Assembly: GCA_016795485.1 (NCBI GenBank)
Contig: JAEUHM010000009.1
Location: 62,001 to 126,000, forward strand
Reading direction: 5' to 3'
Source: Verrucomicrobiaceae bacterium
GTDB lineage: Bacteria > Verrucomicrobiota > Verrucomicrobiia > Verrucomicrobiales > Verrucomicrobiaceae
DNA: 64,000 nt
Shown here: in pieces, positions 19,123 through 23,219 of the stretch
Layout of the letters: the number at the start of each line of letters is the position of its first letter
How positions within the stretch are numbered: position 1 is the first letter of the stretch
Program-made: the position numbers and the translations under genes
Notes under the pieces: generated by a model
What the model was told of the DNA's origin: nothing
What the model saw: the letters and a program-made list of their open reading frames with translations, nothing else
Database searches by the model: none

Positions 19123-20670
19123 ATGTCCGTAGACGCACCCGAAAACCCCTTCCTCGACACCCTCATCACCCGGCAGCGCGCAGAACCCTGCACCGTGGTC
19201 ATCTTTGGAGCCACCGGCGACCTCACCCACCGCAAGCTCATCCCCGCCCTCTACAACCTAGCCGCCTCCTCCGAGCTCCCGCCCCAGTCCAAAGTCATCG
19301 GTTTCGCCCGGAGAGACAAATCAGACGAAGACTTCCGCACCGAGCTCGAAGCCGCCAACCGCAAACACTCCCGCCAAGGCCACGACGACGCCCTCTGGGG
19401 CAGTTTCGCCCAGGGCATCCACTACCACCGCAGCGAGTTCACCGACACCGAAGGCTACCGCGGCCTAGCCAAGCTCCTCGACGACTTCGACACCCAGCGC
19501 GGCTCCCCCGCCAACCGCCTCTTCTACCTCGCCACCGCCCCCGAGTACTTCCACGTCGTCCTCGAGCAACTCGCCGCCGTCGGCCTCAACATCGCCCCCG
19601 AGGGCAAATGGGCACGCGTCGTCTGCGAGAAACCCTTCGGCAAAGACCTCAAATCCGCCCAAAAGCTCAACACCACCGTCAGCCAAGTCTTTGCCGAGCG
19701 CGACACCTACCGCATCGACCACTACCTCGGCAAAGAAACCGCGCAGAACCTCATGGTCCTCCGCTTTGCCAACGAAATCTTCGAGCCCCTCTGGAACTCC
19801 CGCTACATCGACAACGTCCAGATCACCTGTGCAGAGAACCTCGGCATGGAAGGCGGCCGCGGCGCCTACTACGACACCGCCGGAGCCCTCCGCGACATGG
19901 TGCAGAACCACCTCTTCCAGCTCCTCAGCCTCGTCGCCATGGAGCCCCCCACCGACCTCAGTGCAGACTCCGTGCGCGACGAGAAAGTCAAAGTCATCCG
20001 CTCCCTCCGCCCCCTCGCCACCATTGAGGAAGTCGCCCAAAACGTCATCCGCGCCCAATACACCGCCGGCTTCGTCGATGGCCAATCCCGAGTAGGCTAC
20101 CGGAAGGAAGACCGCGTCAACCCCCAGTCCCTCACCGAAAGCTACGTCGCCCTCCGCCTCCGTATCGACACTTGGCGTTGGCAAGGCGTCCCCTTCTACA
20201 TGCGCGTAGGCAAGCAACTCCCTCGCAAGGCCACCGAAATCTCCATCCACTTCAAGACCCCGCCCCAGAACCTCTTCCGCACCCTAGAGGTCAACGAAGG
20301 CGGCAACGTCCTCGTCATCCGCATCCAGCCAGACGAAGGCATCTCCCTCCGCATGCTCTCCAAGCAACCCGGAGTCCTCTTGCGCATGCAACCCGTCAAG
20401 ATGGACTTCCACTACCGCACCAGCTTTGGCAAATCCTCCCCAGAAGCCTACGAGCGCCTCCTGCTCGACGCCATGGCCGGAGACGCCACCCTCTTCGCCC
20501 GGAACGACGAAGTCGAAAGCGCCTGGAGATACATCGACGCCATCGAACACGCCTGGCACGACGACCCCAAAATCGCCCCGCCCATGCACGAATACCCCGC
20601 CGGATCGTGGGGCCCCCGAGCCGCCGACGAAATGCTCGGAGTCGATGGCCGAGTGTGGCGGAGGATATAA
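19123..20670 (+). CDS. zwf: Glucose-6-phosphate 1-dehydrogenase
   Basis: 515 residues, full length for the family (about 490-515). It oxidises glucose 6-phosphate to 6-phosphogluconolactone with NADP+ in the oxidative pentose phosphate pathway. The Rossmann motif IFGATGDLTHRK (27-38), CEKPFGKD (168-175), and the catalytic RIDHYLGKE (197-205, with H200 and K204) are all present. The C-terminus ending in GSWGPRAADEM is also typical. Lactonase and 6-phosphogluconate dehydrogenase genes are not adjacent. Third codon positions are dominated by C, which matches the C-rich top strand of this stretch rather than the rest of the window. The repeat cluster begins 7 nt after its stop. Confidence 0.97.
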   Translation: MSVDAPENPFLDTLITRQRAEPCTVVIFGATGDLTHRKLIPALYNLAASSELPPQSKVIGFARRDKSDEDFRTELEAANRKHSRQGHDDALWGSFAQGIHYHRSEFTDTEGYRGLAKLLDDFDTQRGSPANRLFYLATAPEYFHVVLEQLAAVGLNIAPEGKWARVVCEKPFGKDLKSAQKLNTTVSQVFAERDTYRIDHYLGKETAQNLMVLRFANEIFEPLWNSRYIDNVQITCAENLGMEGGRGAYYDTAGALRDMVQNHLFQLLSLVAMEPPTDLSADSVRDEKVKVIRSLRPLATIEEVAQNVIRAQYTAGFVDGQSRVGYRKEDRVNPQSLTESYVALRLRIDTWRWQGVPFYMRVGKQLPRKATEISIHFKTPPQNLFRTLEVNEGGNVLVIRIQPDEGISLRMLSKQPGVLLRMQPVKMDFHYRTSFGKSSPEAYERLLLDAMAGDATLFARNDEVESAWRYIDAIEHAWHDDPKIAPPMHEYPAGSWGPRAADEMLGVDGRVWRRI

Positions 20671-20676
20671 ACAAAG

Positions 20677-20962
20677 CCTCTCGCGCCCCTTCAGGGCGCA
20701 ATGCATTCATTCACCGCGAGACCCAGGGCATCGCTACGCTCAGCCCTGGGCTAGAGTCTCAGCCCCCTTTGGGGGCGTTTTGGGGCAACGGTGTGTTCCG
20801 CCCATCGCCCCGCCACACGAACCGGCCCAACGCTCGGTTCCGCCCATCGTCCCGCCACACGAACCGGCCCAACGGGCCGGCAGATTTAGCCCAGGGCTGA
20901 GCGGAGCGATGCCCTGGGTTCGTGGCACGGCAACGCCGGGTGCCCTGGAGGGGCACGAGAGG
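20677..20962. repeat. Inverted-repeat element, copy A (286 bp)
   Basis: The ends are imperfect inverted repeats: CCTCTCGCGCCCC at the left and a reverse-complement-like GGGGCACGAGAGG at the right. Inside lie a left 32-bp block (20721-20752) and a right block (20888-20919); each folds into CCCAGGGC/GCCCTGGG and the two are reverse complements at 31 of 32 positions. A GC-rich hairpin (AGCCCCCTTTGGGGGC) and two tandem ~45-bp modules based on CGCCCATCG and GGCCCAACG occupy the centre. Short open frames across it are not believable genes. Confidence 0.9.
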
Positions 20963-20993
20963 CCTCATTCATGCCCCCGCGCGCCTGCCGTGG

Positions 20994-21446
20994 TCAATCC
21001 CACACGTACCGCTCGTCGAACGCGATCTCGTACTTCCGCAAAAACGCCCGGAACTCCTCCTGAAACGTCTTTACCCGATGATGCTCCCGCTGGTTGCGAA
21101 TGTAATCCCGCACCTCCTCCACCGCCGACTGACTCACGGAGAACGCCCCGTAACCCGCCTGCCAATGGAACCCACGGAACCCCTCCCCGCGCTCTCGGAG
21201 CCAATCCGTGGCGCTCTTTTTCAGGCCGCCCACCACATCGCTCAACGCCACCGTCCGCCCGAGCAAAAACAGCACGTGCGCGTGATCCGGCTCCGAGTTC
21301 ATCTCCACCGGCATGCAATCCATCCCCTTCAGCACCCCGCCCATGTAGGCGTGCAAATCATCGCGGATCGCATCCACCAGCACGCGGTCGCGATTTTTCG
21401 TGGAGAAAACCAAGTGCACATAGAGTTTGGCAAGCGATTGCGGCAT
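20994..21446 (-). CDS. REP-associated-type Y1 (HUH) transposase
   Basis: 150 residues, ATG at 21446. The HUH motif is H55-x-H57 in EPDHAHVLF, and the predicted catalytic tyrosine is Y115 in EVRDYIRNQREHH, the layout of IS200/IS605 TnpA and of REP-associated tyrosine transposases (RAYTs). The N-terminal VHLVFSTKNR also fits. No TnpB or IscB gene accompanies it, and no IS200-type end structure is seen next to it. Instead it sits between two copies of the ~286-bp inverted-repeat element (31 nt from copy A, 104 nt from copy B), the arrangement typical of RAYTs and their cognate palindromes. Such proteins are single-copy, domesticated nucleases that are thought to spread REP sequences. It appears intact. 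Confidence 0.88.
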   Translation of the reverse strand: MPQSLAKLYVHLVFSTKNRDRVLVDAIRDDLHAYMGGVLKGMDCMPVEMNSEPDHAHVLFLLGRTVALSDVVGGLKKSATDWLRERGEGFRGFHWQAGYGAFSVSQSAVEEVRDYIRNQREHHRVKTFQEEFRAFLRKYEIAFDERYVWD

Positions 21447-21550
21447 GGCGACGGATCAGGCCAGTGTAAACCAGATTGGCCGGAGCGGAAGAGTTTCATC
21501 CAAGACAGGGCCCCAGGCAATGAAATCGGTGCGGTGGGAAAGGAAAGGAG

Positions 21551-21835
21551 CCTCTCGCGCCCATTCAGGGCGCAATGCATTTATTCACCGGTGACCCAGG
21601 GCATCGCTACGCTCAGCCCTGGGCTGGGGTCTTAGCCCCCTTTGGGGGCGTTTTGGGGCAACAGACATCCCGGCGGGTCGTTTTGTTGGGGGGATTGGTC
21701 CGGCGTTCGGTTCGGCCCATTGTTTTGTCGCGTGGACCGGCCCAAGGGGTCGGGAGGGTTAGCCCAGGGCTGAGCGGAGCGATGCCCTGGGTTTTTGGGT
21801 TGGCAATGTGGGGTGCCCTGGAGGGGCACGAGAGG
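21551..21835. repeat. Inverted-repeat element, copy B (285 bp)
   Basis: Same layout as copy A: terminal inverted repeats, left 32-bp block at 21594-21625, right block at 21761-21792, and the GGGGGC hairpin in between. The central module is the most diverged of the three full copies (TTGTTTTGTCG-type sequence replaces the CGCCCATCG module). It follows the transposase gene start at a distance of 104 bp. Confidence 0.9.
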
Positions 21836-21843
21836 GTTTGGAG

Positions 21844-22129
21844 CCTCTCGCGCCCCTTCAGGGCGCGGGGCGTGGGGGCATTCGTGACCCAGGGCATCGC
21901 TTCGCTCAGCCCTGGGCTGGGGTCTTAGCCCCCTTTGGGGGCGTTTTGGGGCGCGGCGGGTCGCCTCGCCCATCGTGCCGCCGGGAGATTGGCCCAACGT
22001 TTGGTTCCGCCCATCGTTTGGCCGGGTGGACCGGCCCAACGGGTCGGGAGATTTAGCCCAGGGCTGAGCGGAGCGATGCCCTGGGTTCGTGGGTTGGCAA
22101 TTTGGGGTGCCCTGAAGGGGCACGAGAGG
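21844..22129. repeat. Inverted-repeat element, copy C (286 bp)
   Basis: Begins 8 bp after copy B, in the same orientation. Left block 21887-21918 differs in its loop (TTCG in place of TACG); right block 22055-22086 is intact. The central module has two CGCCCATCG-based sub-repeats, as in copy A. Confidence 0.9.
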
Positions 22130-22137
22130 GTTTGGAG

Positions 22138-22242
22138 GCTCTCGCGCCCTTTCAGGGCGCAATGCATTTATTCATCGCGAGACCCAGGGCATCGCTACGC
22201 TCAGCCCTGGGCTAGAGTCTCAGCCCCCCTTGGGGGCGTTTG
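22138..22242. repeat. Inverted-repeat element, truncated copy D
   Basis: Only the left part is present: terminal hairpin (GCGCCC/GGGCGC), left 32-bp block at 22182-22213, and the GGGGGC hairpin. It breaks off where the others continue with TTTTGGGG and runs into GT-rich sequence. No right block was found downstream. Confidence 0.85.
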
Positions 22243-22535
22243 TGGGGGCTATTGTGGTGTTTGTGGTGGATGCGTGGGCGTTTGTGGTAGTTGCTTGGGT
22301 GTTTTGGGGTTGTGTTTTGGGTAAATGGGGGTGTGTTTTGGGTTTTTGGGTGGGTTCTCCGCTGTTTTTGTTGGGTGTTTTGGGTAAATGGGTCGTTGAT
22401 TTGGGTTTTTGGGTCGATTCTCCGCTGTTTTTGTCGTGTGTTTTGACAGCATGGGGTTGTTTTCTTGAATCAGTGGTGTATTTTACTGAATCATTGACTA
22501 TTTTTGGCGGAGAAACGGTCTATTTTCTTGATACA
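22243..22535. other. GT-rich gene-free stretch upstream of the orphan gene
   Basis: Almost devoid of C on the top strand and dominated by runs such as TGTTTTGGG and TTTGTGGT. It contains a two-copy 63-bp tandem repeat (22321-22446). The frame of the downstream gene is open through it and would code for a hydrophobic G/V/F/W-rich stretch, but composition explains this better than coding. Confidence 0.6.
22321..22446. repeat. Two-copy 63-bp GT-rich tandem repeat
   Basis: Copies at 22321-22383 and 22384-22446, each starting GTAAATGGG and containing TTCTCCGCTGTTTTTGT. The period of 63 nt is a multiple of three. Confidence 0.8.
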
Positions 22536-23219
22536 ATGCTTGCTGTTTATGATTTTGCGGTGACTCAGCTTCGTTATGTGATGGCTGCTATGGTGGAGGT
22601 GCCTGCTTTTCGTCCGGATGGGGCTTCGGTGGCTGATGTGGAGGCTATGTTGGATGGGGCGGAGCCTATTGGGACGGCCTACGTGAGTGCTCGGATGAAT
22701 CTGGGGTTTGCTCAGACTGGGCGGCGGCTGGCTTTTGAGGTGCTGAATGATGCTTGTGTGGACTTTTTTAGTCAGGCGGGCAATGCTTTCCGCAAGGATG
22801 CGGCGGTTATGGAGCAGTTGGGGGCTCTGCCGGTGAATGCTAGGGCGTTTCCGAAGATGTTGGCGCGGGCGGATGCGATTTTGGCGGCTTGGGCTCAGTT
22901 GCCGCTGATTGGGGTGCCGCCGGGGGTGTTTGTGGTGGCTCAGGTGGATGCGCCGCTGACGCGGGTGGGGATGCTGGGGCTGCGGGATGCGGCGGTGGCT
23001 GCGGGCGGGGTGCTGACGGTGGCGGAGCAGGCGTTCCAACTGCATCGCAGTGCGCTGAATGCGAAACTGCGTGAGATGCGGGATTTTGTGGTGGCGGCTC
23101 TGAGGCTGGGGAGGTCGCAGTTTCCTGAGGGTTCTGTGGACCGGGGGCTGATTGACGCGGTTCCGAAGCGGAGAAAGGCTAGGCGGGAGGACGAGGAGGG
23201 GGGCGGGGAGGAGGGGTGA
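22536..23219 (+). CDS. Orphan hypothetical protein
   Basis: 227 residues from ATG 22536. I do not recognise the family. It looks helical and soluble: no signal peptide, an N-terminal segment (AVYDFAVTQLRYVMAAM), a middle part with RRLAFEVLNDACVDFF and GNAFRKDAAVMEQL, and a charged tail (PKRRKARREDEEGGG) rich in Lys/Arg then Glu/Gly. The open frame reaches back to 22230, but the upstream part lies in GT-rich repeat sequence. The chosen ATG is the first after that tract; a second ATG in MAAMVEVP is possible. Codon third positions favour G and T, as does the top strand overall here. It lies next to the repeat/transposase cluster and converges with the PPC gene 13 bp away. Confidence 0.7.
   Translation: MLAVYDFAVTQLRYVMAAMVEVPAFRPDGASVADVEAMLDGAEPIGTAYVSARMNLGFAQTGRRLAFEVLNDACVDFFSQAGNAFRKDAAVMEQLGALPVNARAFPKMLARADAILAAWAQLPLIGVPPGVFVVAQVDAPLTRVGMLGLRDAAVAAGGVLTVAEQAFQLHRSALNAKLREMRDFVVAALRLGRSQFPEGSVDRGLIDAVPKRRKARREDEEGGGEEG

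Follow-up and report, generated by a model that had tools for sequence, protein, structure and literature searches.

The DNA analysed here is a 64,000-nt stretch of a Verrucomicrobiaceae genome (the window; contig C7 coordinate = window position + 62000). It carries a tyrosine transposase gene, tnpA, set among inverted copies of a repeat unit of three hairpins. Gene and repeat probably constitute a REPtron-like system in which the enzyme is a subclass 1.2 tyrosine transposase, of the IS200-like class 1, and the three-hairpin unit its composite substrate. Subclass 1.2 was described as near IS200 and without IS ends or REP, so that its substrate had been unknown. The composite repeat, which flanks subclass 1.2 genes in several phyla, is a concrete candidate for that substrate and accounts for a repeat common in genomes of Verrucomicrobiota.

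A first-pass annotation had reported copies of about 286 bp, one of them truncated, around a transposase. These were found at 20675-22247 (window positions): copy A at 20675-20962, and copies related to it at 21549-21835 (80% identity), 21842-22129 (81%) and 22136-22247 (95%, the truncated one). Inverted blocks in the copies have arms of 32-33 nt with 97% complementarity. The whole copy had been taken as a palindrome unit ten times the size of a REP. Following iterated profile searches of the genome, the true repeating unit proved to be a series of three small hairpins in tandem (H1-H2-H3) of about 96-100 nt, two of which, placed tail to tail, make up one 286-bp element. The hairpins within hairpins described earlier are no nested palindrome but arise from the inverted pairing of palindrome-bearing units. 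The tandem central module was recovered as a 42-nt duplication, yet it is confined to the spacer of copy A. The features are as follows.

20678 to 20779, plus strand: three-hairpin unit 1 (profile match and fold), the first half of copy A; stems H1 GCGCCC..GGGCGC, H2 CCCAGGGC..GCCCTGGG then CT, H3 GCCCCC-TTT-GGGGGC
20780 to 20874, plus strand: tail-to-tail spacer of copy A with the 42-nt tandem duplication (repeat family D4), the former central module
20864 to 20961, minus strand: three-hairpin unit 2 (profile match and fold), of the other subtype than unit 1; stems H1 GTGCCC..GGGCAC, H3 CCGGCCC-GTT-GGGCCGG
20994 to 21446, minus strand: tnpA, encoding a 150-aa HUH/Y1 transposase, between copies A and B (PF01797, Y1_Tnp, E 2.9e-25)
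21552 to 21652, plus strand: three-hairpin unit 3 (profile match), H1 end toward the tnpA start
21738 to 21834, minus strand: three-hairpin unit 4 (profile match), head to head with unit 5, 10 nt between
21845 to 21945, plus strand: three-hairpin unit 5 (profile match)
22032 to 22128, minus strand: three-hairpin unit 6 (profile match), head to head with unit 7, 10 nt between
22139 to 22240, plus strand: three-hairpin unit 7 (profile match), a complete unit and not, as first annotated, a truncated element

The H1 end of unit 2 faces tnpA, with the stop codon 32 nt away. In units of the host genome, H1 is preceded by CTCTC and H3 by TCT, and H2 consists of CCCAGGGC...GCCCTGGG followed by CT. The H1 stem occurs in three versions (GTGCCC/GGGCAC, GCGCCC/GGGCGC and GCGGCC/GGCCGC). 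Over 57 units, 96.2% of stem cells were paired, versus at most 55% for slid partners. Two-sided stem changes were counted in 62 cells versus 19 in shuffles of these units, a level reached in 0 of 500 shuffles. The changes between H1 stem versions are compensatory.

Between the array and an ORF at 22551-23219, which is unmatched and without a Pfam domain, G/T-rich repeats of 21 and 63 nt form a run (22250-22550). Spurious long ORFs cross the palindromes (20426-21469, 21575-21928, 21632-22162 and similar ones) and could receive a 'hypothetical protein' annotation.

The copies are not confined to this locus. A profile search of the 6.5-Mb host genome gave 61 unit matches, spread over 16 loci that are all intergenic according to a simple ORF call; 57 of the matches are near full length. 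The H2 palindrome pattern CCCAGGGC-N13-GCCCTGGG was found at 44 genome sites and the same pattern read backwards at none, so the palindromes are not due to chance. Adjacent units always alternate in orientation, direct neighbours being absent from the genome, and the alternating arrays contain as many as ten units. At every locus the facing H1 ends of head-to-head junctions (23 in total) are 9-12 nt apart, and in 22 of these junctions the partners are of unlike subtype. Tail-to-tail gaps measure 34-307 nt and are locus-specific.

Near-identical units occupy intergenic loci without any common flank, for example on C32 and C11 (95 of 97 letters identical in the profile-search alignment), and the unit is therefore dispersed. 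The arrays on C24, C29, C32 and C49 have flanking gene ends in common; to judge from these flanks, part of the spread may have come with gene duplication. Arrays at C24:12663, C29:99767, C32:130137, C49:47590 and C60:3060 lie at the same point past the end of seemingly related large genes, the C60 array having just ~44 bp of that gene-end flank in common with the other four. The pair C24 and C29 (three units versus one, with matching flanks) was considered as a case of insertion and rejected, deletion between direct copies being the explanation.

The annotated Y1 transposase with intact HUH and tyrosine motifs was confirmed. Its score against NF033573 is just over the family cut-off, and it carries the motifs DHAH (HUH), WQ and YIRNQREHH. 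In 23 homologs the HUH motif, W95, Q96, Y115, Q119 and H123 are invariant, and H122 is present in at least 90%. The HUH motif, DHAH in the window protein, reads DHVH, DHIH or DHAH among these homologs, and DH[IV]H in the published form of subclass 1.2. For this subclass, Quentin et al. (2018; PMC6006769) gave the motifs Y---Q--HH and WQ and a length of about 148 aa. The motif set of TnpA (DHxH, WQ, YIxNQxxHH; ~150 aa) thus points to the TnpA-Y1 subclass 1.2 type. The nearest solved structures by sequence are 2a6m, 2vhg, 2xm3 and 2fyx, of the IS200/IS605 elements IS608 and ISDra2. The motif Y---NP of class-2 RAYT/TnpA-REP proteins is absent and Y---Q stands in its place. Because TnpA has neither the Y---NP motif nor an accompanying GTAG tag, it falls outside the RAYTs sensu stricto, to which it had first been likened.

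The host genome holds one gene of the tnpA type, besides further, distant Y1 genes. In agreement with the first annotation, no TnpB was found in the tnpA neighbourhood, nor any PF07282 match over cut-off genome-wide. In comparisons with its two nearest homologs, tnpA gave a dN/dS of about 0.03-0.07 and is therefore under purifying selection.

The pairing of transposase and repeat had initially been drawn from their positions alone. It was examined by scoring the 250-nt upstream flank of each gene against its 250-nt downstream flank in reverse complement, with distal segments as controls. In the order, 89 homologous loci gave a median flank score of 42, and 62 of them scored at least 30; the distal controls reached a maximum of 16, with 0 of 89 at 30 or more. 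Across phyla, scores of at least 25 were obtained for 19 of 23 loci in Verrucomicrobiota, 9 of 10 in Planctomycetota, 9 of 23 in Bacteroidota and 8 of 12 in others (controls at most 14, bar one at 25). By flank score, roughly 30% of the order's homologs, and more than half of those in Bacteroidota, have no clear inverted pair. When flanks were read, the H1-H2-H3 order was kept with quite different sequences, H1 usually toward the gene. Among homologs from named genomes, the same arrangement was seen in Planctomycetota, in Acidobacteriota-type and other MAGs (MAG labels may mislead for single contigs) and, less often than elsewhere, in Bacteroidota (Kaistella, Algoriphagus and others).

A sequence-blind detector of triple hairpins (score at least 22) responded to 54.6% of 317 flanks versus 1.7% of 292 distal controls. 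The gene-H1, H1-H2 and H2-H3 spacings had medians of 22, 23 and 11 nt. In 81 dereplicated units, the C directly after H2 is conserved in 72% and the T next to it in 75%, the strongest conservation outside the stems. In the same units, the 5′ tag of H1 was more like that of H3 within a unit than in 500 shuffles. No conserved tetranucleotide was found before H1, H2 or H3, and the REP tags GT[AG]G and CGTC were absent.

Co-occurrence was surveyed by counting the H2-CT pattern in 190 genomes of the order, with at least three copies scored as presence. This level was reached in 67 of 116 genomes with tnpA versus 3 of 74 without (p 9e-16, inflated by relatedness; Spearman 0.63), and the backwards control pattern matched once across all 190 genomes. 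Within the family of the window the association was weak (p 0.016). The expectation that genomes with copies always carry the transposase thus held nearly throughout, with one strong exception: G036, of the same order, has 49 H2-CT copies and no detectable transposase in an assembly that is 86% complete. In G014 fragments of tnpA remain, and G007 has three copies and no tnpA.

Also, the more similar two proteins were, the more similar were their units (Mantel r 0.27, 0 of 1000 permutations, inflated by genome relatedness). Unit likeness amounted to 0.78 for units on either side of one gene, 0.69 for those of different genomes whose proteins are more than 60% identical, and 0.55, near background, for four within-genome paralog pairs. 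As likeness tracks the protein and not the shared genome, the repeat belongs to the enzyme. Together with the flank scores and the co-occurrence, this bears out the pairing initially drawn from position.

The position of tnpA has changed between related genomes. In the window it adjoins zwf; 10 relatives have zwf conserved with no tnpA beside it. The closest homologs (90% and 87%) lie in G134 and G013, in a locus matching host C2:42-45 kb. The tnpA sites thus differ among the host, G134 and G013, units adjoining each, and tnpA has therefore moved among unit arrays. Either transposition or inter-array recombination may account for this relocation. In G134, a block of units, tnpA and further units (1155 bp in all) separates two genes between which G013 has 10 bp; the tnpA of G013 lies at the adjacent unit pair, one side of which is partly deleted. 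The comparison of loci with and without an element, proposed in the first annotation, showed differing occupancy and no clean insertion footprint. Comparison of the zwf flanks and those of two C2 arrays with relatives gave no base-perfect empty site, and at the sole candidate, G013 versus G134, divergence was too high for a base-level footprint.

As a separate observation, the gene junction at host C2:42669-45152 (L239-L243), in an apparent type I restriction-modification locus, is a hot spot. It holds unit arrays in the host and G134, tnpA in G134 and G013, and unrelated accessory genes in G140 and G088.

The changes of place, the position of tnpA between inverted units with the geometry of gene-free pairs, and the fact that IS200 requires no TnpB would also fit an ordinary IS200-type insertion sequence, in which tnpA and its two flanking units are mobile and solo units are remains or internally deleted copies (MITEs). 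This explanation is improbable in view of one gene copy versus 61 unit matches in the host genome, the strong purifying selection on tnpA, and the few within-genome paralogs examined, which are 43-51% identical proteins and not near-identical copies. The presence of several near-identical whole copies per genome, a trait of IS200 subclass 1.1, is absent from the host genome. In addition, inverted pairs of ~100-nt composites are not IS200/IS605 ends, and low copy number is published for subclass 1.2 (PMC6006769).

In the REPtron-like system, a HUH/Y1 single-strand nuclease retained by the host would recognize its cognate unit of ~100 nt in single-stranded form, for example in the lagging-strand template. 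The substrate would comprise, in order, H1, about 23-25 nt, H2 with CT, about 10-11 nt, and H3. TnpA is predicted to bind this unit, select strand and cut site, and mobilize it, single-strand cutting and rejoining dispersing non-autonomous, gene-free copies. The elementary form would be a head-to-head pair of unlike subtypes, 9-12 nt apart, and the gene-bearing copy has the same geometry with tnpA filling the gap (<- tnpA ->). Arrays may grow through repetition of the pair plus its own spacer. The cut is perhaps made at the CT after H2, by analogy with REP transposases, which cut at a CT next to the hairpin (PMC8266576).

A further reading, possible but doubtful, is that the three-hairpin unit forms a substrate class of its own, a single composite object for the subclass 1.2 enzyme in which H1 and H3 would correspond to the left and right hairpins of IS200 and H2-CT would mark the cut. 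H1 and H3 are likened to an IS200 end pair because their 5′ tags resemble each other within the unit. If so, each ~100-nt unit would be a complete miniature single-strand transposon, different from REP, with one hairpin, and from IS200, with one hairpin per end.

REPtrons (TnpA-REP/RAYT with REP, BIME or REPIN, in E. coli, Pseudomonas and Stenotrophomonas) likewise have a single-copy conserved Y1 gene with inverted palindromic flanks, many scattered intergenic copies, pairs and arrays of two subtypes in alternating orientation, a CT beside the hairpin and a repeat family of their own for each enzyme, the last seen here in the four within-genome paralog pairs. They differ in that the present enzyme has the class-1 motif (Y...Q with HH) in place of Y...NP, a GTAG/GTGG tag was not seen, the unit has three hairpins in ~100 nt whereas a REP is one hairpin of 20-40 nt, the copies number tens and not hundreds, and the hosts belong to other phyla. 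IS200/IS605 elements (IS608, ISDra2) share the Y...Q motif and hairpin substrates and provide the nearest solved structures. Where those elements carry a single same-strand hairpin at each end, inverted composite units are found here on both sides, with no TnpB and one gene copy. Class 3 TnpA-Y1 of Planctomycetes and Acidobacteria (PMC6006769) also pairs a Y1 gene with atypical many-copy secondary structures; its Y....Q motif and CnGA foot were not seen here.

Quentin et al. (2018; PMC6006769) reported subclass 1.2 as mostly from Cyanobacteria and Bacteroidetes, of low copy number and devoid of both REP and typical terminal structures. The present system agrees in having a protein of about 150 aa with WQ and YIxNQxxHH, a low copy number, divergent paralogs and occurrence in Bacteroidota, and differs from the published description in its composite hairpin flanks and in being common in Verrucomicrobiota and Planctomycetota. 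The 62 of 89 flanked homologs and those of other phyla therefore correct the description of the subclass and not the assignment, the absence of REP being a reported observation and no sequence criterion. Subclass 1.2 appears to have partner repeats after all; none is described in the open-access papers searched. The data suggest that the REPtron lifestyle, a single-copy enzyme with many passive repeats, occurs in class 1 too, beyond classes 2 and 3.

TIRtrons (De Nocera et al. 2013; PMC3733652) are Y1 genes with long inverted flanks, some partly self-complementary and some recurring elsewhere as dimers or clusters. It is quite unlikely that the present units are likewise long, incidentally self-complementary terminal inverted repeats whose three-hairpin order has no special role. 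That order, common to the units here, is not described for TIRtrons, and order, spacings and the CT after H2 persist while the stems change, also across phyla. Moreover, no TIRYT falls in subclass 1.2: of the 26, 20 belong to 2.1 and the others to 2.2 and 2.5 (PMC6006769). Terminators or mRNA-stabilizing hairpins selected for expression control, with an incidental transposase link, are a very remote explanation: the units are intergenic, often close to the 3′ ends of large genes, and rich in G+C, but they accompany tnpA homologs on either side across phyla and vary along with the transposase, their presence co-varies with that of tnpA, termination needs no alternating three-hairpin arrays of up to ten units, and an Rfam search of the units for structured RNA gave 0 families above threshold.

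The other Y1 proteins of the host genome were considered as mobilizers of the unit and rejected, 0 of 9 of their loci carrying one. Three of these genes in the host genome (G000), at L052 (C20:67579), L053 (C41:47734) and L058 (C58:103234), have their own, different short palindromes nearby; CCTGGCTCACAGAGCCAGG is repeated around L053 and CTTCGAGTGCCACTCGAAG around L052. Since these other Y1 loci have palindromes of their own, several independent REP-like families are suggested within the host genome.
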